A DNA stretch of 64,000 nt. Origin: Herbiconiux moechotypicola (GTDB taxonomy: Bacteria; Actinomycetota; Actinomycetes; Actinomycetales; Microbacteriaceae). Both the position numbers and the translations under genes were made by a program. This document shows, piece after piece, positions 6,283 to 17,148 of the stretch. Position 1 is the first letter of the stretch. Every line of letters starts with the position of its first letter. Where the stretch lies: the NCBI RefSeq assembly GCF_024979255.1, contig NZ_JANLCN010000004.1, forward strand, positions 310,001 through 374,000. Direction: 5' to 3'. The notes under the pieces were generated by a model. It did not search any database. It was not told the origin of the DNA and was given only the letters and a program-made list of their open reading frames with translations.

Positions 6283-8886
6283 TCATGCTGTGCCCTCTGC
6301 CGTCTCGGCGGGCGCTAGAACTATATCGCTCACCACGAGCTCCTCCGCGGAGGCGAAGTGCAGCTCCTCGATGCGGCCCACCGCCTTGAGGTCGCCCGCG
6401 ACGAGCTGCAGCAGCTCGATCTCCTCGGCGGGGCCCGCGATGGTGGCCGAGGCCACGGGCACGCGCTGTGACACCTTCGCCTCGGTCTTGGTGCGGCGGA
6501 TGGCGATGAGCGCCCGGCCGGCGAGCTCGAGCACCCTCGCGTCTGCACCCTCGGTCATCAGCGCCGGCCACGCATCCGTCGGCCACTTGGCCGTGTGCAC
6601 GCTCTCGTCGTGGGTCCACGACCACACCTCTTCGGTGGCGAACGGCAGGTAGGGCGCGAACAGGCGCAGCTGCACCTCGAGCGCGGTGCGCAGAGCGATC
6701 ACGGCCGACGCGCGCTCCTCGGGCGAGGCGTCGGAGCGGTAGGCGCGCTCCTTCACCAGCTCGAGGTAGTCGTCGCAGAAGGTCCAGAAGAAGCGCTCCA
6801 CCGTCTCGAGCGCGCGGGCGTGCTCGTAGGAGCGGAGGTCCGTGGAGGCGGCGGCCACCACGCGGTCGAGCTCGGCGAGCATGCCCTTGTCGAGCGGGTT
6901 GCTCACCGGGAAGGAGCCCTCGGGCAGCTCGAAGCCGTAGACGAACTTGGCCGCGTTGAGGATCTTGATGGCCAGGCGGCGCCCGATCTTGATCTGCGTG
7001 GGGTTCTTCTCGTCGAACGCCGCGTCGGTGCCGAGGCGCGACGAGGCGGCCCAGTAGCGCACCGCATCCGAGCCGTGGGCGGCCAGGATGTCGGCGGGCG
7101 TGACCACGTTGCCCTTCGACTTCGACATCTTCTTGCGGTCGGGGTCGACGATGAAGCCCGAGAGCGCGGCGTGCGCCCACGGCTTCTGACCCGACTCGAG
7201 CGTGGAGCGGAGCATGGTGGAGAACAGCCAGGTGCGGATGATGTCCTGCCCCTGCGGCCGCAGGTCGTAGGGGAACACCGTCTCCCACAGGGCGGCGTCG
7301 CGCTCCCAGCCGCCCGCGAGCTGCGGGGTGAGGGAGGAGGTGGCCCAGGTGTCCATCACGTCGACCTCGCCCTGGAAGCCGCCGGGCACGCCGCGCTGCT
7401 CTTCGGAGTAGCCGGGTGCCGCATCCGACGACGGGTCCACCGGCAGCGAGGCGGCCTCGGGCAGGATCGGCTGGTCGAACACGGGGTTGCCGTCGGCGTC
7501 GAGCGGGTACCACACCGGCAGGGGCACACCGAAGAACCGCTGGCGCGAGATGAGCCAGTCGCCGGTGAGGCCGCCCACCCAGTTCTCGTAGCGCACGCGC
7601 ATGAAGTCGGGGTGCCAGTCGAGCTCCTGCCCCAGCTTGATGAGCCGGGCGCGGAGGGCTTCGTCGCGGGCACCGTTGGAGATGTACCACTGCCGGGTCG
7701 ACACGATCTCGAGCGGGCGGTCGCCCTTCTCGAAGAACTTCACCGGGTGGGTGATGGGCTTCGGGTCGCCGATGAGCTCACCCGAGGCGCGCAGCAGCTC
7801 CACCACGGCCTGCTTGGCCGAGAAGACGGTCTTGCCCGCGAGCTGCGCGTAGGCCTCGCGACCGGCCTCCGACTCGATGGCGGCCGGCGGCTCGCTCACG
7901 ACGCGGCCGTCGAAGCCGATGATGGCGCGGTTGGGCAGGTCGAGGTCGCGCCACCAGATGACGTCGGTGAGGTCGCCGAAGGTGCAGATCATGGCGATGC
8001 CGGAGCCCTTGTCGGCCTGCGCGAGGTGGTGCGCCAACACGGGCACCTCCACGCCGAACACGGGCGTGGTGACGGTGGTGCCGAAGAGGGGCTTGTAGCG
8101 CTCGTCATCCGGATGCGCGACCAGGGCCACGCAGGCGGGCAGCAGCTCGGGGCGGGTGGTCTCGATGAACACGGGCGAGCCGTCGGCCGCGTGGAACTCG
8201 AGGCGGTGGTAGGCGCCCGGCTGCTCCTTGTCCTCCAGCTCGGCCTGCGCCACCGCGGTGCGGAACGTCACGTCCCACAGGGTGGGAGCCATGGCCTGGT
8301 AGGCCTCGCCGCGCTCCACGTTGCGGAGGAACGCGAGCTGGGAGGCGGCCTGCGCCTCACGCGAGATGGTGCGGTAGGTCTGGGTCCAGTCGACCGAGAG
8401 GCCGAGGTCGCGCCAGAGCGACTCGAACTGCTTCTCGTCTTCGACGGTGAGGATCTCGCAGAGCTCGATGAAGTTGCGGCGCGAGATGGGCACCTGGTCG
8501 GCGGCCTTCGACGACTTGTTGTCGCCGCCCTCGAAGGGCGGGGTGAAGTCGGGGTCGTAGGGGAGCGACGGGTCGCAGCGCACGCCGTAGTAGTTCTGCA
8601 CGCGGCGCTCGGTGGGGAGGCCGTTGTCATCCCACCCGATCGGGTAGAACACGCGCTTGCCGGTCATGCGCTGGAAACGGGCGATCACGTCGGTGTGCGT
8701 GTAGGAGAAGACGTGACCGATGTGCAGAGAACCGGATGCGGTGGGCGGCGGGGTGTCGATGGAGTAGACGGTCTCGCGGCTCGCGCCCTCACGCGGGAAG
8801 AGGTAGGTGCCCTGCTCGGCCCACCGCGCATCCCACTTCTTCTCGAGGCCCTCGAGAGCCGGTTTCTCGGGCATGCGTTCGGACAT
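6283..8886 (-). CDS. valS: Valine--tRNA ligase
   Basis: Class I aminoacyl-tRNA synthetase charging tRNA-Val, 867 residues. The HIGH motif is intact at residues 55-58 (SGSLHIGHVF) and the KMSKS loop as KKMSKSKGN near residue 585. The long editing domain lies between them; the tRNA-binding C-terminal region follows KMSKS. The ATG has GGAGG seven bases upstream. An upstream TAGACT (complement of 8953-8958) may be its -10. I looked for a T-box leader and see none in the short leader. The next gene (GNAT) overlaps or nearly abuts its stop. Confidence 0.97.
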   Translation of the reverse strand: MSERMPEKPALEGLEKKWDARWAEQGTYLFPREGASRETVYSIDTPPPTASGSLHIGHVFSYTHTDVIARFQRMTGKRVFYPIGWDDNGLPTERRVQNYYGVRCDPSLPYDPDFTPPFEGGDNKSSKAADQVPISRRNFIELCEILTVEDEKQFESLWRDLGLSVDWTQTYRTISREAQAASQLAFLRNVERGEAYQAMAPTLWDVTFRTAVAQAELEDKEQPGAYHRLEFHAADGSPVFIETTRPELLPACVALVAHPDDERYKPLFGTTVTTPVFGVEVPVLAHHLAQADKGSGIAMICTFGDLTDVIWWRDLDLPNRAIIGFDGRVVSEPPAAIESEAGREAYAQLAGKTVFSAKQAVVELLRASGELIGDPKPITHPVKFFEKGDRPLEIVSTRQWYISNGARDEALRARLIKLGQELDWHPDFMRVRYENWVGGLTGDWLISRQRFFGVPLPVWYPLDADGNPVFDQPILPEAASLPVDPSSDAAPGYSEEQRGVPGGFQGEVDVMDTWATSSLTPQLAGGWERDAALWETVFPYDLRPQGQDIIRTWLFSTMLRSTLESGQKPWAHAALSGFIVDPDRKKMSKSKGNVVTPADILAAHGSDAVRYWAASSRLGTDAAFDEKNPTQIKIGRRLAIKILNAAKFVYGFELPEGSFPVSNPLDKGMLAELDRVVAAASTDLRSYEHARALETVERFFWTFCDDYLELVKERAYRSDASPEERASAVIALRTALEVQLRLFAPYLPFATEEVWSWTHDESVHTAKWPTDAWPALMTEGADARVLELAGRALIAIRRTKTEAKVSQRVPVASATIAGPAEEIELLQLVAGDLKAVGRIEELHFASAEELVVSDIVLAPAETAEGTA

Positions 8887-8968
8887 GGTGGGGCCTCCAG
8901 GACTATGGGCGGCACCGTGTCAGGTGAAGAGGTGCCTAATTATCTGCTGCCAAGTCTACCGAAAACGG

Positions 8969-9071: not shown

Positions 9072-10112
9072 TTACGGCACCAGCACGGCGCGGCCGGTCA
9101 CCTTGCCGGCCTCGAGGTCGTCGAAGGCCTGCTGGAAGTCGGCGAGGGGGTAGCGCTTCACCTCGACCTCGAGCTTGCCCTGCTGGGCGAGAGCGATCAC
9201 CTGCAGCTGGTCGGCACGGGTGCCGCCGTAGGAGCGCTGCACGTTCACGCCCCAGGGGAGGGTCTCGGTGGAGGAGTCGGAGGCGTAGGTGAACGAGCCG
9301 CCGCCGAGCCCCACGAAGCGGAGCGCGCCCTCGGGAGCGATGATCTGCGTGGCGAGCGTGACCGTGGGCTGCACGCCGACGAAGTCGAACACCGCGTCGG
9401 CGCCGTAGCCGTTGGTGAGGTCGAGCACCTTCTGCGCCGCCTCGGAGTCGCTCTTCAGCACGACGTCGGCACCGAGCTCGCGGGCGAGCTCGAGCTTGGT
9501 CTCGTCGTTGTCGATGGCGACGATGCGGGCGCCGGTGGTGGCCTTGAGGATCTGCAGGCCCATGTGCCCGAGCCCGCCGACCGCGATGACGACGGCGGTG
9601 GAACCGGGGGTGAGCCGGTCGCGCGCGGAGTTGATGGCGTGCATGGGGGTGACGCCCGCATCCGCCAGCGGAGCCGCGGCCACGGGGTCGAGGTCGCCGA
9701 TCTTGTCGAGGTGGCGCGCCTTCACCACCATGTACTCGGCCATGGCGCCGTCGGGGCCGAGGCCCGGGGTGGTGGGGAACATGGCGCGGCTGCCGTTGAC
9801 CTCGCAGGCGTTGTCACGGCCCTCCACGCAGGCGCGGCAGTGGCCGCACGCCCACACCACGCTCACGAGCACCGCGTCGCCCTTCTCGAAGCCGTCGACG
9901 TCCGACCCGGTCGACTCCACCCATCCGGCGCCCTCGTGCCCGACGGTGCCGCCGAAGAACGGCCACTCCTCGCCCATGTGCAGCACGTGCAGGTCGGAGT
10001 GGCAGAGGCCGGCTCCCGCCACCTTCACGAGCACGTCGTCGGGGCCGAGTTCCGGCACCGCCACATCCTGCAGCTCCATCGTGTGTGGGCCCACCAGCTT
10101 GACCGCCTGCAT
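9072..10112 (-). CDS. Zinc-dependent alcohol dehydrogenase (NAD(P)-dependent)
   Basis: Medium-chain dehydrogenase/reductase, 346 residues. Catalytic zinc ligands Cys37 and His59 (GHEGAGWV) and the four structural-zinc cysteines 89, 92, 95 and 103 are present. The Rossmann nucleotide loop reads GGLGHMGLQ. It oxidises primary or secondary alcohols or reduces aldehydes; substrate unknown. It is transcribed away from the TetR gene at 10241, and the shared intergenic region carries repeated TGATC blocks and a small palindrome, so control by that regulator is a reasonable inference. Terminated by hairpin repeat copy B. Confidence 0.93.
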   Translation of the reverse strand: MQAVKLVGPHTMELQDVAVPELGPDDVLVKVAGAGLCHSDLHVLHMGEEWPFFGGTVGHEGAGWVESTGSDVDGFEKGDAVLVSVVWACGHCRACVEGRDNACEVNGSRAMFPTTPGLGPDGAMAEYMVVKARHLDKIGDLDPVAAAPLADAGVTPMHAINSARDRLTPGSTAVVIAVGGLGHMGLQILKATTGARIVAIDNDETKLELARELGADVVLKSDSEAAQKVLDLTNGYGADAVFDFVGVQPTVTLATQIIAPEGALRFVGLGGGSFTYASDSSTETLPWGVNVQRSYGGTRADQLQVIALAQQGKLEVEVKRYPLADFQQAFDDLEAGKVTGRAVLVP

Positions 10113-10130
10113 CGGAATCGTGTCCTCTCT

Positions 10131-10154
10131 TGATCGTCTGTGATCGTCGTGATC
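10131..10154 (-). promoter_or_regulatory. Direct TGATC repeats upstream of the alcohol dehydrogenase
   Basis: TGATCGTC occurs at 10131 and 10141, followed by a third TGATC at 10150, spaced 10 and 9 bp, that is about one helical turn. They lie in the probable leader of the dehydrogenase gene. Possible regulator binding sites; unproven. Confidence 0.35.
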
Positions 10155-10194
10155 CGGGCGGCATCGACGCCTGCCCGAGATTCACGATACGCCC

Positions 10195-10234
10195 TGTCTG
10201 ACACCTGTCCGATAATTCCCGGTGAACGTAAACT
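10195..10234 (+). promoter_or_regulatory. Promoter of the TetR gene with small palindrome TGTCTGACA
   Basis: TAAACT at 10229-10234 stands exactly six bases before the ATG at 10241, the spacing of a leaderless transcript. Upstream, the odd-length palindrome TGTC-T-GACA (10195-10203) falls near the -35 region and between the two divergent genes, where an autoregulatory TetR operator would be expected. Confidence 0.5.
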
Positions 10235-10240
10235 GGTGCG

Positions 10241-10837
10241 ATGGACTCGCGAGCGCTCCGAAGCCGCACCGCGCTCGTCGACGCGGCCTACCGGCTGGCC
10301 TCCGAGCGCGACATCGACGAGCTCACGGTGACCGACGTCACCGCGGCGGCGGGCATCAGCCGCGACACCTTCTACCGGCATGCGAGCGACCCGGTCGACC
10401 TCGTCGCCACCGCGCTGCACGCCGAGCTCGCCGAGGCGCTCGCCGCCTATCTCGCGATGCCGGCGACCCTGGTGGGAGCGGAGCCCGGCACGAGCGTGTT
10501 CGCCGAGCCGACCCGCGTGTTCGTGCAGCACGTGCGGGCCCACGCCGAGATCTACCGCCGATCCTCGCGCGGCGGCCTCAGCAGCCGCCTGCGGGCCGTG
10601 CTCACCGACGCGGCCGAGGAGGTGCTGTCGGCGCACCTGCGGAGGCACCCCGAGATCGTGCCCGCCTCGCTCGCCCCGCTCGATGAGGTGTCGTTCGCCA
10701 TGACGGTCGCCTACGCGGCCGGCGGCACGGTGGCGGCCACCGAGGCCTGGCTCGTGCACGGCGACCTCGACGACATCGACGGCGCCGTGCGAGTGGTGCT
10801 CGCGACGGCGCCGTCGTGGTGGCTGGGCCTCGGCTGA
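10241..10837 (+). CDS. TetR-family transcriptional regulator
   Basis: 198 residues, normal for the family. The N-terminal helix-turn-helix is clear: RTALVDAAYRLASERD, then LTVTDVTAAAGISRDTFYRH at about residues 28-47. The rest is a helical ligand-binding domain with no recognised ligand. Divergent from the alcohol dehydrogenase, which is its most likely target. Probably leaderless, since TAAACT ends six bases before the ATG and no Shine-Dalgarno fits. Confidence 0.88.
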   Translation: MDSRALRSRTALVDAAYRLASERDIDELTVTDVTAAAGISRDTFYRHASDPVDLVATALHAELAEALAAYLAMPATLVGAEPGTSVFAEPTRVFVQHVRAHAEIYRRSSRGGLSSRLRAVLTDAAEEVLSAHLRRHPEIVPASLAPLDEVSFAMTVAYAAGGTVAATEAWLVHGDLDDIDGAVRVVLATAPSWWLGLG

Positions 10838-10884
10838 GCCGAGTCCGGGTCGAGGTCGAACCCCAGCCCGAGCCGCGGCTCAGC
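10833..10884. terminator. Possible bidirectional terminator between tetR and pckG fragment
   Basis: GCTGAGCC (10833-10840) and GGCTCAGC (10877-10884) are perfect 8-bp complementary arms that overlap the stop codons of both convergent reading frames, with a 36-nt loop. The long loop keeps confidence low. Confidence 0.35.
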
Positions 10885-11492
10885 GGATGTTCGCCCTGAG
10901 GGTCGAGAGCTCGCGCTGCAGTGACGCGGGGATGCGCTCCCCGCCGATCTCGCCGAAGTACCGCTCGATCTCGTCGGCCTCGCGGCTCCAGGCCTCTCGG
11001 TCGACCGAGAGGATGGCCTGCAGGTCTTCGTAGCCGAGGTCGAGCCCGGCCACGTTGAAGTCGCGCACCCGGGGAAGCTTGCCGACGGGGGTGTCGACGG
11101 CCTCGACGTCTCCCTCGATGCGGCGCACGACCCACTCCAGCACCCGCGCGTTCTCCGAGAACCCGGGCCACAGGAACCGGCCGTCCTCGTCTTTGCGGAA
11201 CCAGTTCACCGAGAACACCGGCGGAGCCTCCGCCCCCAGCGCCTCGCCGATCTCGAGCCAGTGCGCGAAGTAGTCCGCGATGTCGTAGCCGCAGAACGGC
11301 AGCATGGCGAACGGGTCGTGGCGCAGCCGGCCGACGGCGCCCTCGGCCGCGGCCGTCGTCTCCGAGGCCATCGTGGCTCCCATGAAGACGCCGTGGTTCC
11401 AGTCCCGGGCCTGCGACACGAGCGGCACCGTGGTGGGCTGGCGCCCGCCGAACAGGATCGCGTCGATCGCGCCGACCTCGGGCGAGTCCCAC
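10880..11492 (-). pseudogene. Truncated phosphoenolpyruvate carboxykinase (C-terminal third only)
   Basis: An open frame of about 204 codons matches the C-terminal third of the intact PEPCK at 15313-17148 (about 85% identical residues, same stop position, ending LSTLRANIR versus LSTLRANVR). Homology runs without frameshift up to [14 protein letters not shown] and stops dead at 11492, inside codons where the intact copy continues. The nucleotide-binding FPSACGKTN part is absent, so it cannot be an active enzyme. It lies in the same orientation as the intact gene, forming a direct repeat around 11493-15312. An internal start at 11428 gives a spurious 182-residue ORF. Confidence 0.9.
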
Positions 11493-11742
11493 GTTCCGTG
11501 CGGTGGTGCGTCGCGAGATCGAGGCGGGCCGCACGAGCGTCGTGGTCGACCTCGGCGCGGTGACCTTCATGGACTCCTCCGGCCTCGGCGCCGTGGTCGG
11601 CTGCCTCAAGACCGCCCGGCAAGCCGGCGGCGACCTGCGCATCGCGGCCCCGAACGAGCAGGTCATGATGATCCTGCGCCTGTCGAACCTCGACCGGGCC
11701 TTCAAAGCCCACGAATCACCGGAGGTGGCCTTCCACGCTTGA
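11493..11742 (+). pseudogene. Truncated STAS-domain anti-sigma factor antagonist
   Basis: C-terminal three quarters of an anti-anti-sigma protein: VVVDLGAVTFMDSSGLGAVV holds the usual phosphoacceptor serine region (DSSG), followed by LKTARQAGGDLRIAAP and NLDRAF. The first roughly 30 residues (the opening beta strands) are missing; homology begins exactly where the pckG fragment ends. A GTG at 11503 could start a 79-residue product, but it has no ribosome site and would lack part of the fold. STAS antagonists work with SpoIIE-type phosphatases; a broken one lies at 14208. Confidence 0.75.
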
Positions 11743-11744
11743 AC

Positions 11745-14132
11745 TCAGACGTCGGGAGGGCCAGGCGTCGGGCGAATCGATGTGATTCGCGGATCATCGA
11801 CGGTGAAACCCAACCAGCGATAGTCGCTGATGACCTCATCGATGGAGCGCTTGCCGCGAGCGTGCACGGCGACCATCCAGGCGGGAACAGGGAGGGTGGG
11901 ATCCAGCCATGGTTGCTGGCCGTCGGCGTCTCTGCTGATCATCCTGAGGTGTCGGGGGCGCACCCGACTGAATTCATGTACAGGCACAGGAAGACGGCGT
12001 AGAGCTGCCTTCTCCGAGACAGAGTCCAGAGGAGGCTCGACGCCCGTAGGTGAGAAGGTGACCCCGTACGTCTTGAACCGTTCACGCGCCTCTGATTCGG
12101 AGTATCCGAGTTCGCGCGCTGCCCGCCGAACGTGAGCCGTTCGGTACGCAACCGCCGCGGAAAGGAACGGCGGCTGGCCGTCGAGGTCTCTGCTCAGCAT
12201 CACGATGTCGTCGTCGGAGGGGAGGTGATCTGGGAAGGTGAGGTCAGGTGTGGCATCGAAGCCCAAGGCATTCAGGATTTCGATCGCCTGAGCGCAGGTG
12301 ATACCTGCAGCGCGTGCCGCGCGAACGATGTGATCCAAGCCCAGCTCTTCTGACGTAGCCGACCACGGGGCAATTCCATTCGTGCCTGCACTTGCGCACA
12401 CGAGTTCCGCAGATGTGAGCATTGCGGTCTCACGATCGAAGCTCTGCGTCTCGATGAATCGTTCTCCAAGCTCCTCGGTGATTCTTGCGATCGGGACGTC
12501 GAGCTCCCATGACGTCCTGATGACGTCGAACACGGCAAGCGGCTTGAACGATCCGTCTGGCCTCCAACGATCCGAGAACGAAAGGGCCGTTCTCACCAGC
12601 TCGGTACTCGGCGGGAGAAGATGCGCATCATCGCGCGTGGGAAGGCAGAGTTGCTTGGCTCGTTCGACGATGTCGGCGAGAGGATAAGCCAGATGGCGCT
12701 CCGCTTCGTAAAGCAACGAGGTACTGGACGACCATCGAAGGGACTCTTTCGGGTTGAGTTTGGGGGACAGCTGATGATGAGAGCTCCCCAGTAGCACAGC
12801 ATCTGACGGTCGTGCGGGCACCACCCGGCGGGTTGGGAGCCGAGTACGCAGCTTCGGGAACTGGCCGGCCAGCTGGAGTCTGGCGAATCGCCAGTCGATG
12901 ACTTCTCCAGGCGCGCCGGACGTCGCGACGCCCTCGTCGCCCGACATGAACCCAGAGATCCGAATGTCGACCGCTGTGCCGTGAATGCTGAGTGTCCTGT
13001 CAGCTCTGCTGGAGGCGGCCTCCACGACGGCGTCTGCCACGCGCGGCATAAGCTCACTCATCGAGCTCAGCCAGGCGGTGTCACCGACGACACTCCAACA
13101 GTGCTCCACCGCTTCCGCTGCAGAGCGCTCCGCCAAGGTGCTGACGACGCTGGTGCGCAGATCGATGATCGAGCGTCGATCAGCCGTGAGGCGCGGGGCA
13201 AGTGGTCCGCGCAAGTTCACAATCACTCCCTTAAACCACTGGCCGACCCAGATACCATCCACCACGACCGCCCCGGGGAATCCCGGCGCAATCCACCACA
13301 ACTCACCGGGAATGGCAACCTGCGCATATGGGGGCGGGGGCGGGGTAGGAGTCGATGCCCGATTGAGTTCATCTGGCAGCCAGAGGTGCTGAGGGCCGCG
13401 GTCGTCGATCGCACTCAAGGTCACGGGGCAGACAACGACGAGTTTGCGGAGCGTTGATACCGCAGACACCTCCGCCGACGGTTTGAGCCAGAGGCGCACA
13501 TGTGTTCCGCAAGACGTCGAAGGCCCGAGATCAACGATGTCGAACTCCTCGGCGGGCCCAGGGATGTGCATCGCGAGAAGATTACCGATCGTTCCGTCGC
13601 TGTTCAGGCGTGCTGTGCGAACAGAGATCTCGCTCGCCACCATAAAGTACGACAGCACTCCGATGCCGAACAGCGAATTCTGCCAGAACTCGACGGGGGG
13701 ATCGGCCGCCGCGAACATCTCGATCTCGCGAGCGCGCTCGTCGAGATCGGAGGCACGCACCCCGGCGTGGCAAAAGGACCCCGCTAGTTCAACGAGTCCC
13801 ATGCCGGCTCCGCGATCGACGCAATCGATGTAAGCGCGCCCGTCGTCCGAAGTCCCCTGGTGGAACTCGATCACGGGGTCCTGCGCAGAACCGATGTCCG
13901 GGGGCACACCCAGAAGCTTTTGGCGAGCTATCAACAGTCGCCATGCGTCGAGGGCATTCTGATACGCCTCGCGCACGGCCAGAGCGGGGTCGCCGTACAG
14001 ACTCTCCCCGATGAGGAACTCGCGAATCCTGCCTTCAGCGAGGTGAAAGCGAAGACCCGAGGCTATGACGGGCCGCGAGGAACCTTCCATCGGCCCTCCG
14101 TCGGCATTAATGAGGTTAGCTCGAGTAAGCAC
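11745..14132 (-). CDS. Large GHKL (Hsp90-type) ATPase with C-terminal helical repeats
   Basis: 795 residues from the GTG at 14132. The Bergerat fold is readable: N-box AVREAYQNALDA (52-63), G1 box DRGAGM (106-111), G2 box FGIGVLSYFM (155-164) and TSCGTHVRLWL (206-216). The C-terminal third holds repeats of about 70-85 residues starting near 568, 640 and 725, two of them opening with LSRDLDGQPPFL and ISRDADGQQPWL, and possibly a fourth near 510. This layout resembles Hsp90-like proteins with winged-helix repeats proposed for bacterial conflict systems; that is inference. GC is near 60% in samples, against about 70% around it, suggesting transfer. TAGACT stands six bases before the GTG; an ATG at 14090 with GGAGGG upstream is the alternative start. 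No partner gene is adjacent. Confidence 0.85.
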   Translation of the reverse strand: MLTRANLINADGGPMEGSSRPVIASGLRFHLAEGRIREFLIGESLYGDPALAVREAYQNALDAWRLLIARQKLLGVPPDIGSAQDPVIEFHQGTSDDGRAYIDCVDRGAGMGLVELAGSFCHAGVRASDLDERAREIEMFAAADPPVEFWQNSLFGIGVLSYFMVASEISVRTARLNSDGTIGNLLAMHIPGPAEEFDIVDLGPSTSCGTHVRLWLKPSAEVSAVSTLRKLVVVCPVTLSAIDDRGPQHLWLPDELNRASTPTPPPPPYAQVAIPGELWWIAPGFPGAVVVDGIWVGQWFKGVIVNLRGPLAPRLTADRRSIIDLRTSVVSTLAERSAAEAVEHCWSVVGDTAWLSSMSELMPRVADAVVEAASSRADRTLSIHGTAVDIRISGFMSGDEGVATSGAPGEVIDWRFARLQLAGQFPKLRTRLPTRRVVPARPSDAVLLGSSHHQLSPKLNPKESLRWSSSTSLLYEAERHLAYPLADIVERAKQLCLPTRDDAHLLPPSTELVRTALSFSDRWRPDGSFKPLAVFDVIRTSWELDVPIARITEELGERFIETQSFDRETAMLTSAELVCASAGTNGIAPWSATSEELGLDHIVRAARAAGITCAQAIEILNALGFDATPDLTFPDHLPSDDDIVMLSRDLDGQPPFLSAAVAYRTAHVRRAARELGYSESEARERFKTYGVTFSPTGVEPPLDSVSEKAALRRLPVPVHEFSRVRPRHLRMISRDADGQQPWLDPTLPVPAWMVAVHARGKRSIDEVISDYRWLGFTVDDPRITSIRPTPGPPDV

Positions 14133-14138
14133 GATGGG

Positions 14139-14144
14139 AGTCTA
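14139..14144 (-). promoter_or_regulatory. -10 element of the GHKL ATPase gene
   Basis: TAGACT on the minus strand, exactly six bases before the GTG at 14132; supports a leaderless start there, or a 42-nt leader to the ATG at 14090. Confidence 0.5.
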
Positions 14145-14207
14145 GCCTTGCAAACGCTGTTGTGCGCGTTCTCGCCAGCGGTACGGACGGCGAGTACGCT
14201 CCGAATC

Positions 14208-15283
14208 ATGCGGAGTGTGCGAGTGGAGCGACCATGCACCGACGCCCACGAAGACGCACGTCTGGAGGCGCTCGCCGCGGTCGGGGTGCTCGGCACGCCG
14301 CCGGAGGAGCGCTTCGACCGCATCACCCGGCTCGCGCAGGAGCTGCTGCAGGCGCCGATGTCGTACCTCAACATGGTCGACCGCGACTCGTACGTGGTGA
14401 AGTCGCCGCAGCCCGAGCCTGGGCCCGCGCCGCGCTACCCGTACGGCACCGCGTTCCGCGAGTACACGGTGCACGGCGACGGTCTCTTCGAGGTTCCGGA
14501 TGCGCGGCACGATCCGCGCTTCAGCGAGACTCCCGCGGTCACCCACTTCGGTGTGGGTTCCTACGCCGGGGTGCCGCTGCGAGTGCCCGGCGCGAGGCCC
14601 TCGGCCGCTGAGCGGAGGGCGAGCTGCGCGAAGGGCCCGACGAGCCCGTCGGCACGGCTGACGCCGCGAGCCGGGCGCACGAGCTGCCGACGGTGCACGC
14701 CGGCTCGGTCGATGCGCTTCGGTGAGGTCAGCGGCGACCTGTACGGCTGGTCGGGCGACGACGAGGCGATCGTGGCGACGCTAGGCGACATGATGGGCAA
14801 GGGCCCCCGCGCCGGCGCTGTCGCCGAGGCACTGCGGTCGGCGCTGCACTCGGCAGCCTCGGGTGCGACCGAGTCCCCGGGTGAAGCACTTCCACGGGCC
14901 TCCCGTGAGCTCGCCCCGCGCTTTGACGAACTGGGCCGCTTCGCCACACTGTTCCACGCGCGCGTCGATGCCCGCACGGGGTGGTGGAGTTCGTCGACGC
15001 GGGCCACGGGCTCACCCTTCACCTGGGCAGGGAGGGCACGACTACACGTCTCACGTCGTATGACATGCCCCTCGGCCTCCAAGCGGAGTCCGACGGCTGG
15101 ACCGTGCAGCAGGTGCACCTCGAGCCGGGTGACGTGCTGCTGTCGGTCACCGACGGGGTGCGCGACGCCTACGACTCCACGCTCGCGAGCCTCGACCGCA
15201 TCGCGGAAGAGCTGCGCGTGCAGCCCGCGGTACCGGCCTTCCTCGACACGATGACCGCGCGCATAGCGATCACCTTCGGCTGA
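14208..15283 (+). pseudogene. Decayed GAF-SpoIIE (PP2C-type) serine phosphatase
   Basis: The N-terminal GAF domain is intact to about 14590 (EALAAVGVLGTPPEERFDRI, PMSYLNMVDRDSYVVKS, HFGVGSYAGVPL). The next 120 bp are unrecognisable, apparently after a deletion, and the phosphatase resumes in the same frame at FGEVSGDLYGW (about 14715), GDMMGKGPRAGAVAEALRS. A one-base loss near 14979 shifts the frame; the end is readable in frame 2 as VEFVDAGHGLTLHLG and LSVTDGVRDAYD. A relic TACGCT promoter sits seven bases before the ATG. Such phosphatases dephosphorylate STAS antagonists, fitting the broken STAS gene at 11493. It converges on pckG. Confidence 0.85.
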
Positions 15284-15312: not shown

Positions 15313-17148
15313 CTACCGCACGTTGGCGCGGAGGGTGCTGAGCTCGCGGTGCAACTGGTCGGGGATGCGGTCGCTGCCGAGCTCCTCGAAGTAGTGCTCG
15401 ATCTCGTCGGCCTCACGGCTCCACGCGGCGCGGTCGACCGAGAGGATCGACTGCAGCTCCTCGTAGCCGAGGTCGAGTCCGTCGACGTTGAAGTCGCGCA
15501 CCTTGGGGAGCTTGCCGACGGGGGTGTCGACGACCTCCACGTCGCCTTCGATGCGACGGACGATCCACTCGATGACGCGTGAGTTCTCGGAGAACCCGGG
15601 CCACAGGAATTTGCCGTTCTCGTCTTTGCGGAACCAGTTCACCGAGAAGATGGGGGGCGCATCCGTTCCGAGCTTCTCACCGATGGTCAGCCAGTGGCCG
15701 AAGTAGTCGGTGATGTTGTAGCCGCAGAAAGGCAGCATCGCGAACGGGTCGTGACGGAGTCGCCCGACGGCGCCCTCGGCGGCGGCGGTGGTCTCGGAGG
15801 CCATCGTGGCTCCCATGAACACGCCGTGCGACCAGTCGCGGGCCTGCGACACCAGCGGCACCGTCGAGGGCCGGCGGCCGCCGAACAGGATGGCGTCGAT
15901 GACGACACCCTCGGGCGAGTCCCACTCGGAGGCGATCGACGGGCACTGGTCGGCGGTCACCGTGAAGCGCGAGTTCGGGTGCGCGGCCGGTGTGCTCGAC
16001 GACGGGGTCCAGTCGTTGCCCTGCCAGTCGATGAGGTGGCCGGGGGCCTTCGGGGTCAGGCCCTCCCACCACACGTCGCCGTCCTCACGGAGCGCCACGT
16101 TGGTGAAGATGGAATTGCCCCACACCGTGTCGACCGCGGTGGGGTTGGTGGTGATGCCGGTGCCGGGCGCCACGCCGAAGAAGCCGCGCTCGGGGTTGAT
16201 GGCGCGCAGCCTGCCGTCGGGACCGGGGCGCATCCAGGCGATGTCGTCGCCGATGGTCTCCACCTTCCAGCCCGGGATGGAGGGGTTGAGCATCGCGAGG
16301 TTGGTCTTGCCGCAGGCGCTCGGGAAGGCGGCGGCCACGTGGTACACCTTGCCCTCGGGGCTCGTGATCTTGATGATGAGCATGTGCTCGGCGAGCCAGC
16401 CCTCGTCGCGGGCCATGACGCTCGCGATGCGCAGGGCGAAACACTTCTTGCCGAGCAGGGCGTTGCCGCCGTAGCCCGAGCCGAACGACCAGATCTCGCG
16501 GGTCTCGGGGAAGTGCGAGATGTACTTGGTGGGGTTGTGCGGCCACGCCACGTCGGCGTGCCGCACGCCCTCGGCGTCGACGAGGGGGGCGCCCACGGAG
16601 TGCACCGCGGGCACCCAGGGGGTGTCGGGCCCGATGAGGTCGAGTGCGGCGGTGCCCATGCGGGTCATCAGCTGCATGCTGATGACGACGTAGGGCGAGT
16701 CGGTCACCTGCACGCCGAGCTGCGAGATGGGGCCGCCGAGCGGGCCCATCGAGAACGGCACCACGTACATGGTGCGGCCGCGCATGCTGCCGGCGAACAG
16801 GGTGTCGAGCTCCTCGCGCATGCCGAAGGGGTTGCGCCAGTTGTTCGTGGGGCCCGCATCCGACTGCTTCTCGGAGCAGATGAAGGTGCGGTCCTCCACC
16901 CTCGCCACGTCGGCGGGGTCGCTGCGGGCGAGGAAGCTGTTGGGGCGCCATTCGGGGTTGAGCCGGATGAGGGTACCCTGGGCCACCATCATCTTGGTGA
17001 GCTCGTCCCACTCGCGCGTGGAGCCGTCGCACCACACGATCTCGTCGGGCTTGGTGAGCAGGGCGATGTCGCGCACCCACTCGTTCACGGCCGGGTTACG
17101 GCTCGGTCCGTCGACATCGACCAGCGGGCGGCTCTCGAGGATGCTCAT
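15313..17148 (-). CDS. pckG: Phosphoenolpyruvate carboxykinase (GTP)
   Basis: Gluconeogenic enzyme converting oxaloacetate and GTP to phosphoenolpyruvate, CO2 and GDP; cytosolic. Complete at 611 residues, the usual GTP-type length. Marks include the P-loop [13 protein letters not shown] with the reactive cysteine, the metal/nucleotide motif GDDIAWM, and FFGVAPGT. It is the only intact copy in the window; a C-terminal fragment of a diverged copy is at 10880. Divergent from a RamB-like regulator at 17262, which in related actinobacteria governs acetate and gluconeogenic genes, so control by that neighbour is likely but inferred. Confidence 0.97.

Follow-up and report, generated by a model that had tools for sequence, protein, structure and literature searches.

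A compact, apparently effector-less Hsp90-type ATPase with C-terminal PF24410 repeats, inserted as a single gene between pckA and valS of Herbiconiux moechotypicola

Introduction

A 64,000-nucleotide stretch of the Herbiconiux moechotypicola genome (contig NZ_JANLCN010000004.1, positions 310,001 to 374,000; hereafter the window) contains, at 11745..14132 on the reverse strand, an intact gene for a 795-residue protein in which motifs, Pfam and profile comparisons recognise an Hsp90-type GHKL ATPase followed by three C-terminal repeats of Pfam family PF24410. Judged by its sequence, the gene represents a compact variant, devoid of effector domains, of a domain combination recorded in Pfam, and a clean single-gene insertion. 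The protein is probably a pared-down representative of a receptor family of antiviral type, and a role in defence is what we infer for it. The family looks like NLR-style receptors equipped with an Hsp90-type ATPase switch because many of its large members carry TIR or caspase domains and one compact member adjoins a nuclease gene. We are fairly confident in placing the family among immune-type receptors and, with somewhat less assurance, favour the view that the window gene itself encodes a compact immune-receptor-like protein in which the Hsp90-type GHKL ATPase would replace the STAND/NB-ARC switch. A sequence-only reading of the window had already proposed a possible conflict-system protein; the PF24410 repeats, the accessory single-gene insertion and the TIR and caspase fusions of relatives speak for that proposal, and the silence of the PADLOC defence models speaks against it.

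Domain architecture of the window protein

The open reading frame (ORF) begins with GTG, has an alternative ATG start at codon 15, and runs through 795 codons with zero internal stops. The N-box (residues 52-63, AVREAYQNALDA), G1 (106-111, DRGAGM) and G2 (155-164, FGIGVLSYFM) motifs lie exactly where the sequence-only reading had placed them. Residues E55, N59, D106, G108, G110, M111, G156 and G158 are identical in 27 of 28 aligned rows, the remaining row being gapped, and G209 and T210 in 26 of the 28, with gaps in the remainder, so that all marks of an Hsp90-type GHKL ATPase are present: the E and N of the N-box, the DxGxG of G1, the GxG of G2 and the GT motif. Pfam HATPase models do not match the protein at E up to 1. 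A profile of the 28 aligned rows, the window protein included, retrieves HtpG (2ior) as its best solved match with an E-value of 1.2e-11, followed mostly by other Hsp90s. In an hhalign comparison with eight HtpG-like proteins, all from the bacterial family of the host, residues 24-220 (13473..14063, reverse strand) alone align, with an hhalign probability of 97.9, and the ~25 residues that precede this domain have no Pfam match. The N domain is of Hsp90 type and the remainder of Hsp90 is not recognisable, since the profile alignment stops at residue 220.

These matches raise the alternative that the gene encodes a chaperone or stress protein, i.e., a diverged HtpG/Hsp90 paralogue engaged in ordinary client folding. 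Besides the solved structures, NCBIfam PRK14083 'HSP90 family protein' agrees with it to a degree, matching residues 41-220 with an E-value of 1.5e-6 and a score of 27 bits, far short of the cut-off of 455. We nevertheless consider this alternative quite unlikely: the similarity to HtpG is confined to the N-terminal ATPase domain common to both, the C-terminus belongs to PF24410, the gene is patchily present, and TIR and caspase domains occur as fusions in its relatives. The candidate of an HtpG paralogue was rejected, because the similarity ends at about residue 220 and both length and C-terminus differ, the middle and C-terminal domains of Hsp90 and its layout of ~600-660 residues being absent. 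The earlier statement that the protein is not HtpG is thus borne out by the layout, even though the N domain finds its best solved match in HtpG.

The PF24410 model ('wHTH-HSP90_Na-assoc'), the name of which states an association with Hsp90-type ATPases, matches the window protein well above its cut-off (E 7e-31, 106.8 bits vs 23) in three stretches on the reverse strand: residues 575-626 (12255..12410), 640-692 (12057..12215, LSRDLDGQPPFL) and 726-777 (11802..11957, ISRDADGQQPWL); a weak partial repeat stretch lies at residues 469-495. Because a self-built profile would be circular, an independent repeat profile was seeded with 10 units from distant homologues only, the window protein being left out. 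It recovers the three units with independent E-values of 2.4e-3, 4.5e-12 and 1.8e-5, and it matches none of 500 shuffled versions of the window protein. The search of the C-terminus against wHTH-Hsp90-associated families that had been suggested for the gene therefore ends in PF24410, and the wHTH similarity whose absence would have counted against the proposal is there; the claim of at least three repeats stands as to their number, and the unit, at ~52 residues with starts spaced by 65 and 86, is shorter than the 70-85 residues given for it. If the Pfam label is right, the repeats would adopt a winged-helix fold, a prediction taken from the family name alone. No further PF24410 matches occur in the host genome.

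Large relatives and their effector domains

A search of the bacterial class gave matches in 113 of 394 genomes, mostly to proteins of HtpG-like size, and 90 of the 113 were left aside; strong matches (E below 1e-70) were obtained in 22 genomes, the host's own included. Twenty class-level loci were compared, namely 19 strong ones and G1310, and two further strong loci were taken separately. N-termini were scanned for 19 of the 20 loci, L099 being left out. An iHD-CE domain lies ahead of the ATPase in 18 of them, and the nineteenth is an HD-CE + HATPase protein. Nine of the iHD-CE proteins start with TIR_2 (two of these also have Peptidase_C14 in between), three carry Peptidase_C14 alone, and six have neither and begin with a short leading stretch; the ORF start used for L109 is probably too early. 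Three further homologues all contain iHD-CE, two of them together with a caspase domain. The order in the large relatives can be written as TIR, caspase or neither, followed by iHD-CE, the Hsp90-type ATPase and the repeats, with PF24410 found in all six large proteins scanned for it (L028, L029, L030, L068, L100 and L110) in up to 8 stretches.

The window protein aligns with these large relatives throughout, as an Hsp90-type ATPase followed by PF24410 repeats: the mean occupancy of the long homologues per 20 residues is 0.79-1.0 over residues 21-700 and 0.26-0.74 in the last 95. It shares with them what PF24410 describes and differs in what precedes the ATPase, since Pfam searches found no iHD-CE (PF24401), HD-CE (PF24391) or effector domain either in it or in the other compact proteins. 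The examination of homologues' neighbourhoods that had been recommended for the gene brought to light both these TIR and caspase fusions within the class and an Endonuclease_NS gene beside the compact copy of genome G012, which is considered below. On an Azospirillum megaplasmid, a protein with the order caspase-iHD-CE-HATPase-repeats adjoins a small CU044_2847-like gene that scores below the model cut-off, and helicase-like and McrC-like ORFs, named by reading, lie within the same 16 kb.

Several members of the family deserve a record of their own. In two proteins (L103:3528-10115(+) and L108:4562-11050(+)), TIR_2 is accompanied by a caspase-family match within a single chain, both ahead of iHD-CE and the Hsp90-type ATPase. 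Those large proteins that have neither TIR nor caspase (L109-L114) begin with short stretches such as TRNVVGGDTVAGTVVQAGSI, which we take to resemble bacterial amyloid signalling motifs. A putative provirus contig in IMG/VR encodes a 1071-residue HD-CE-HATPase protein (L127:6852-10067(+)) near an ORF that reads like a helix-turn-helix (HTH) regulator. The Streptomyces collinus plasmid pSCO1 carries a 517-residue relative of the ATPase part (L067:7545-9098(+)), with no PF24410 match; a sigma-factor-like HTH gene immediately precedes it, and trypco2 and FxsT genes lie in the vicinity.

Insertion between pckA and valS

The window gene lies between two core genes, pckA (15313..17148) and valS (6283..8886, named by sequence reading and synteny), both on the reverse strand. 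Compared with G014, a genome of the same genus, the inserted segment (11745..14230, reverse strand) amounts to 2.49 kb and consists of the ORF, with the stop codon of which it terminates, and a leader of 98 bp (14133..14230) carried along with it. The junctions are sharp: gap positions 1082 and 3569 of the host genome (G000) map to the neighbouring positions 1206 and 1205 of G014, where the flanks are contiguous with a 2-bp overlap. On one side the insert is flanked by a STAS gene (11503..11742, forward strand), truncated at its N-terminus to 79 residues from the 112 of its counterparts in G014 and G007, and on the other by a GAF-SpoIIE phosphatase gene (14162..15283, forward strand), the first codons of which are disrupted and split off by the insertion; the phosphatase is a single ORF of 395-404 residues in G014, G006 and G007. 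Since the insert is made of leader and ORF and splits the phosphatase start, the gene must have arrived after the phosphatase/STAS pair, and alone. The window copy is thus inserted into a younger arrangement, and the earlier remark that it stands alone in a scarred accessory locus is right; the scars are the truncated STAS gene, the broken phosphatase gene and a duplicated pckA 3' end. No sigma-70-type promoter was matched in the leader, no target-site duplication exceeding 2 bp is present at the insert, no integrase was seen among the called ORFs between pckA and valS on inspection by eye, with no dedicated search, and the window contains no tRNA gene or Rfam family.

The same interval has received varied genes in other genomes. 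Both pckA and valS are found in all 16 genomes of the host genus, and the distances between their matches are 96-167 bp in nine, 341 and 466 bp in two, and 1.4-6.4 kb in five (G006, G014, G007, G002 and G000). With phosphatase and STAS names transferred from the Pfam matches in the window, the interval holds a GAF-SpoIIE-type phosphatase gene, a STAS-type gene and a cellulose-synthase-like gene (named by reading) in G014 and G007, and the phosphatase gene only in G006; in G002 the Hsp90-type gene is the sole occupant (2541 bp). In a second genus, the copies of G022 and G929 stand directly before valS and that of G887 directly after pckA; they adjoin ABC/HlyD-type genes (names by reading), which G781 of the same genus has without the Hsp90-type gene. 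Altogether, with the window copy counted, the pckA-valS interval harbours five copies in the two genera, all on the pckA/valS strand.

Such a position could suggest a local regulator, a DNA-binding ATPase controlling pckA, valS or the adjoining partner-switch genes. The shared strand of the five copies would fit, as would the location of the window gene between STAS and SpoIIE-phosphatase genes, because modules of this kind usually include a GHKL kinase. We regard a regulator as very unlikely: in 14 of the 16 host-genus genomes pckA and valS lie near each other without the gene between them, two compact copies are located elsewhere, and the ATPase matches Hsp90 models. The more specific candidate of a partner-switch kinase serving the flanking pair was rejected, as the gene is on the strand opposite to both genes, its insertion split the phosphatase start, and G014 and G007 keep the pair without it.

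Further features of the locus may be noted. The pckA 3' duplicate (10880..11492, reverse strand; 82% protein identity to full pckA) is ~82-87% identical in DNA to the pckA genes of the genus, nearest to those of G015 and G003 and not to the resident gene; it is joined to the truncated STAS gene, and next come a TetR-family gene (10241-10837(+), Pfam) and a gene (9072-10112(-)) that reads like a zinc alcohol dehydrogenase. The whole 9072-11492 segment looks like foreign DNA joined by one illegitimate end. In G978, a low-GC gene of another type, encoding an HD-CE-HATPase protein (L066:8282-11434(+)), lies ~2.3 kb upstream of valS, so that valS-linked DNA has acquired two kinds of Hsp90-type gene. 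Just ahead of the valS ribosome site there is a hairpin (GGCACC...GGTGCC, 8887-8950(-)) that is kept in 13 aligned loci; its loop is shorter in G002 and the second genus than elsewhere. It has no Rfam match, and its six stem pairs are invariant with zero covariation; because the stem never varies, the fold is uninformative for or against structure. Among the 12 leaders of the genus compared, the valS leader of G002 is of the other genus' type, which points to an exchange between genera in this one case.

Composition, distribution and tree

The composition of the ORF sets it apart from its surroundings. Its GC content at third codon positions is 0.70 and its codon-adaptation index 0.30, compared with 0.92-0.96 and 0.70-0.80 in 15 other window genes, nine of which served as the codon-adaptation reference. 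The GC of the ORF as a whole is 0.62, close to the value near 60% estimated earlier from sampled stretches, and that of the remaining genes called between 9072 and 18704 is 0.69-0.75.

The gene is also rare. Homologues were matched in four of 60 genomes (the host and three of 59 relatives), in six of 396 genomes of a draw from the phylum and in 15 of 398 genomes of a family-wide draw, the host being counted in both. The compact type accounts for five of the 15 (G000, G002, G022, G887 and G929), G978 contributes the HD-CE-HATPase protein, and the other nine match weakly, with proteins that are HtpG-like in size; G012 is absent from these matches, possibly because it was not among the genomes drawn. 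In an order-level draw PF24410 matched in 10 of 297 genomes, again with the host included, mostly near the cut-off, and only G157 was followed further. A scan of genome contigs with the single protein as query yielded one distant locus, which was left aside. A core, vertically inherited gene of normal GC, the outcome that would have spoken against an accessory system, is therefore not what was found: the gene is rare, compositionally deviant and singly inserted.

In the tree, seven compact copies form one clade (support 100/100), and within it the five pckA-valS copies form another (100/99). Because the seven group together, the short form appears to be old and kept, and not a local truncation. 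The G022 copy of the second genus is placed with the other genus (97/98; 83/93 in a second analysis), and a tree constrained to unite the three same-genus copies could not be rejected (approximately unbiased test, p-AU 0.0515), so the tree leaves both jumps between genera and retention with loss as candidate histories of the locus.

Evidence weighing against a defence role

Several observations count against the receptor reading. The first is the state of the window copy itself, which departs from four of 69 nearly invariant columns (L56A, C64W, R154L and L290V), three of them in or beside the N-box and G2; the corresponding numbers are 7 of 71 for the G012 copy and 0 of 68 for G002 and G022, the two nearest kin. 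These changes could reflect relaxation or decay, and the gene may then be a remnant, a broken-down receptor without effector that is on its way out. Decay is under way at the same locus in G929, where the copy (L065:8370-10354(-)) is split into two ORFs and residues ~205-339 are missing; in the G887 C33 copy one stop codon falls within the stretch that was matched, upstream of the ORF used, and the STAS and phosphatase genes that adjoin the window gene are already broken. All the same, we think it unlikely that the window gene is such a remnant, given that its 795-codon ORF is intact, that six of the seven compact copies read as single ORFs, that the residues of the ATP-binding motifs are kept and that the compact copies form one well-supported clade.

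The second concerns the effector. A compact protein might sense the invader and recruit a nuclease or another killer encoded elsewhere, and the G012 locus fits such an arrangement: its compact gene is preceded by an Endonuclease_NS gene and a 115-residue ORF and followed by three more ORFs, two of them with PF24410 repeats, all on the same strand. The host genome encodes one Endonuclease_NS protein of 278 residues (L126:5133-5969(+)) that is 51% identical over 255 residues to the G012 nuclease. It has EPGE in place of DRGH, which we take to be the catalytic motif of the G012 enzyme, and is probably inactive owing to this replacement; moreover, it is encoded on a different contig from the ATPase gene, which arrived alone. 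Neither Peptidase_C14 nor TIR_2 has a match in the genome at E 1e-3, and no good effector candidate emerged from a search that covered Peptidase_C14, TIR_2 and Endonuclease_NS, other effector families not having been searched. An effector acting in trans is accordingly a possibility that we hold to be doubtful for this host.

The remaining points come from database comparisons. PADLOC assigned the window protein to none of its families, and no defence island was recognised around the gene. A 22-unit repeat profile found no convincing relative among solved structures, the best matches having E-values of 0.00056 and weaker, including designed repeat proteins, and covering a short helical part only. 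None of 50,697 phage records contains this type of protein, and of two scans of viral contigs the first gave no match and the second a single one, of HD-CE type; a phage or prophage origin of the gene was rejected on these grounds.

Comparison with known systems

When seven proteins were submitted to PADLOC, the TIR and caspase kin were recognised through those parts and the HD-CE kin weakly through other models, while a short-motif relative and the nuclease went unrecognised. Our literature search, in which subscription journals were thinly covered, found no paper describing the domain combination, PF24410, iHD-CE or HD-CE. We do not call the family new, because the Pfam names show that others have already recognised its domains.

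Caspase, NucA/EndoG-like nuclease and TIR are listed among the shared effectors of apoptotic systems (eLife 2021 e70394, PMC8195603). A precedent for caspases with exchangeable C-terminal parts is offered by the EACC1-caspase two-gene conflict system, in which up to 50 alternative domains are described as fused behind the caspase (eLife 2020 e52696, PMC7159879); the terms 'Hsp90', 'GHKL' and 'HD domain' do not appear in the main text of that paper. The NCBIfam model caspase_w_EACC1 matches two of the caspase-bearing relatives, with scores under its cut-off. The window gene differs from that system in being a single-gene insertion without a caspase domain in a genome without Peptidase_C14, and it does not belong to it on this account, EACC1 itself not having been searched for.

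Another relevant case is VcSduA (Shedu), described in PMC12137116 as a single-gene defence protein whose N-terminal GHKL ATPase forms, in the model, a dimer in which the middle domain resembles a clamp, and which loses defence when ATP hydrolysis is abolished by mutation. The window protein is likewise encoded by a single gene and has an N-terminal GHKL ATPase; VcSduA ends in a PD-(D/E)xK nuclease (DUF4263), whereas the window protein ends in PF24410 repeats with no nuclease match. The paraMORC/MutL-type GHKL proteins of restriction systems (PMC3710099) are also GHKL ATPases in a conflict setting, but they represent a different subfamily, and their HEPN partner has no Pfam match here.

Proposed mechanism and significance

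We propose that the C-terminal repeat array serves as a sensor of an invader component, which would be a nucleic acid, provided that the winged-HTH label is correct, or else a nucleoprotein. The Hsp90-type ATPase in the middle of the large relatives would be the switch and their N-terminus the output, as their architecture suggests. Upon recognition, ATP would close the lid of the N-domain and two subunits would dimerise into a clamp, the clamped state being the output. In the large relatives the clamp would gather TIR or caspase domains, and the cell would be killed or stalled. The output of the compact form is the least-supported step: either the clamp itself may become locked on its target or it may recruit a separate effector. 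Recruitment is conceivable because a nuclease gene adjoins the compact relative in G012; for the host genome we place a self-sufficient clamp slightly ahead, since the gene arrived alone.

A bolder version, to which we give only limited credence, would see here a second, independent line of bacterial NLR-like immune receptors with an Hsp90-type GHKL switch in place of a STAND NTPase, a sensor made of small winged-HTH repeats and exchangeable outputs of TIR, caspase or amyloid type, of which the window gene would be the minimal form, protecting the cell unaided by clamping invader nucleic acid and moving into the pckA-valS interval by recombination in the flanks. Whatever the fate of this version, the interval between these two core genes emerges as one that holds varied accessory genes in two genera, and a family fused to TIR and caspase domains is flagged by the PADLOC models, for the proteins tried, solely through its effector domains. 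Should the favoured reading be true, it would mean that immune receptors can use an Hsp90-type ATPase as their switch, and the simplest system for testing this would be the compact form with its single gene.

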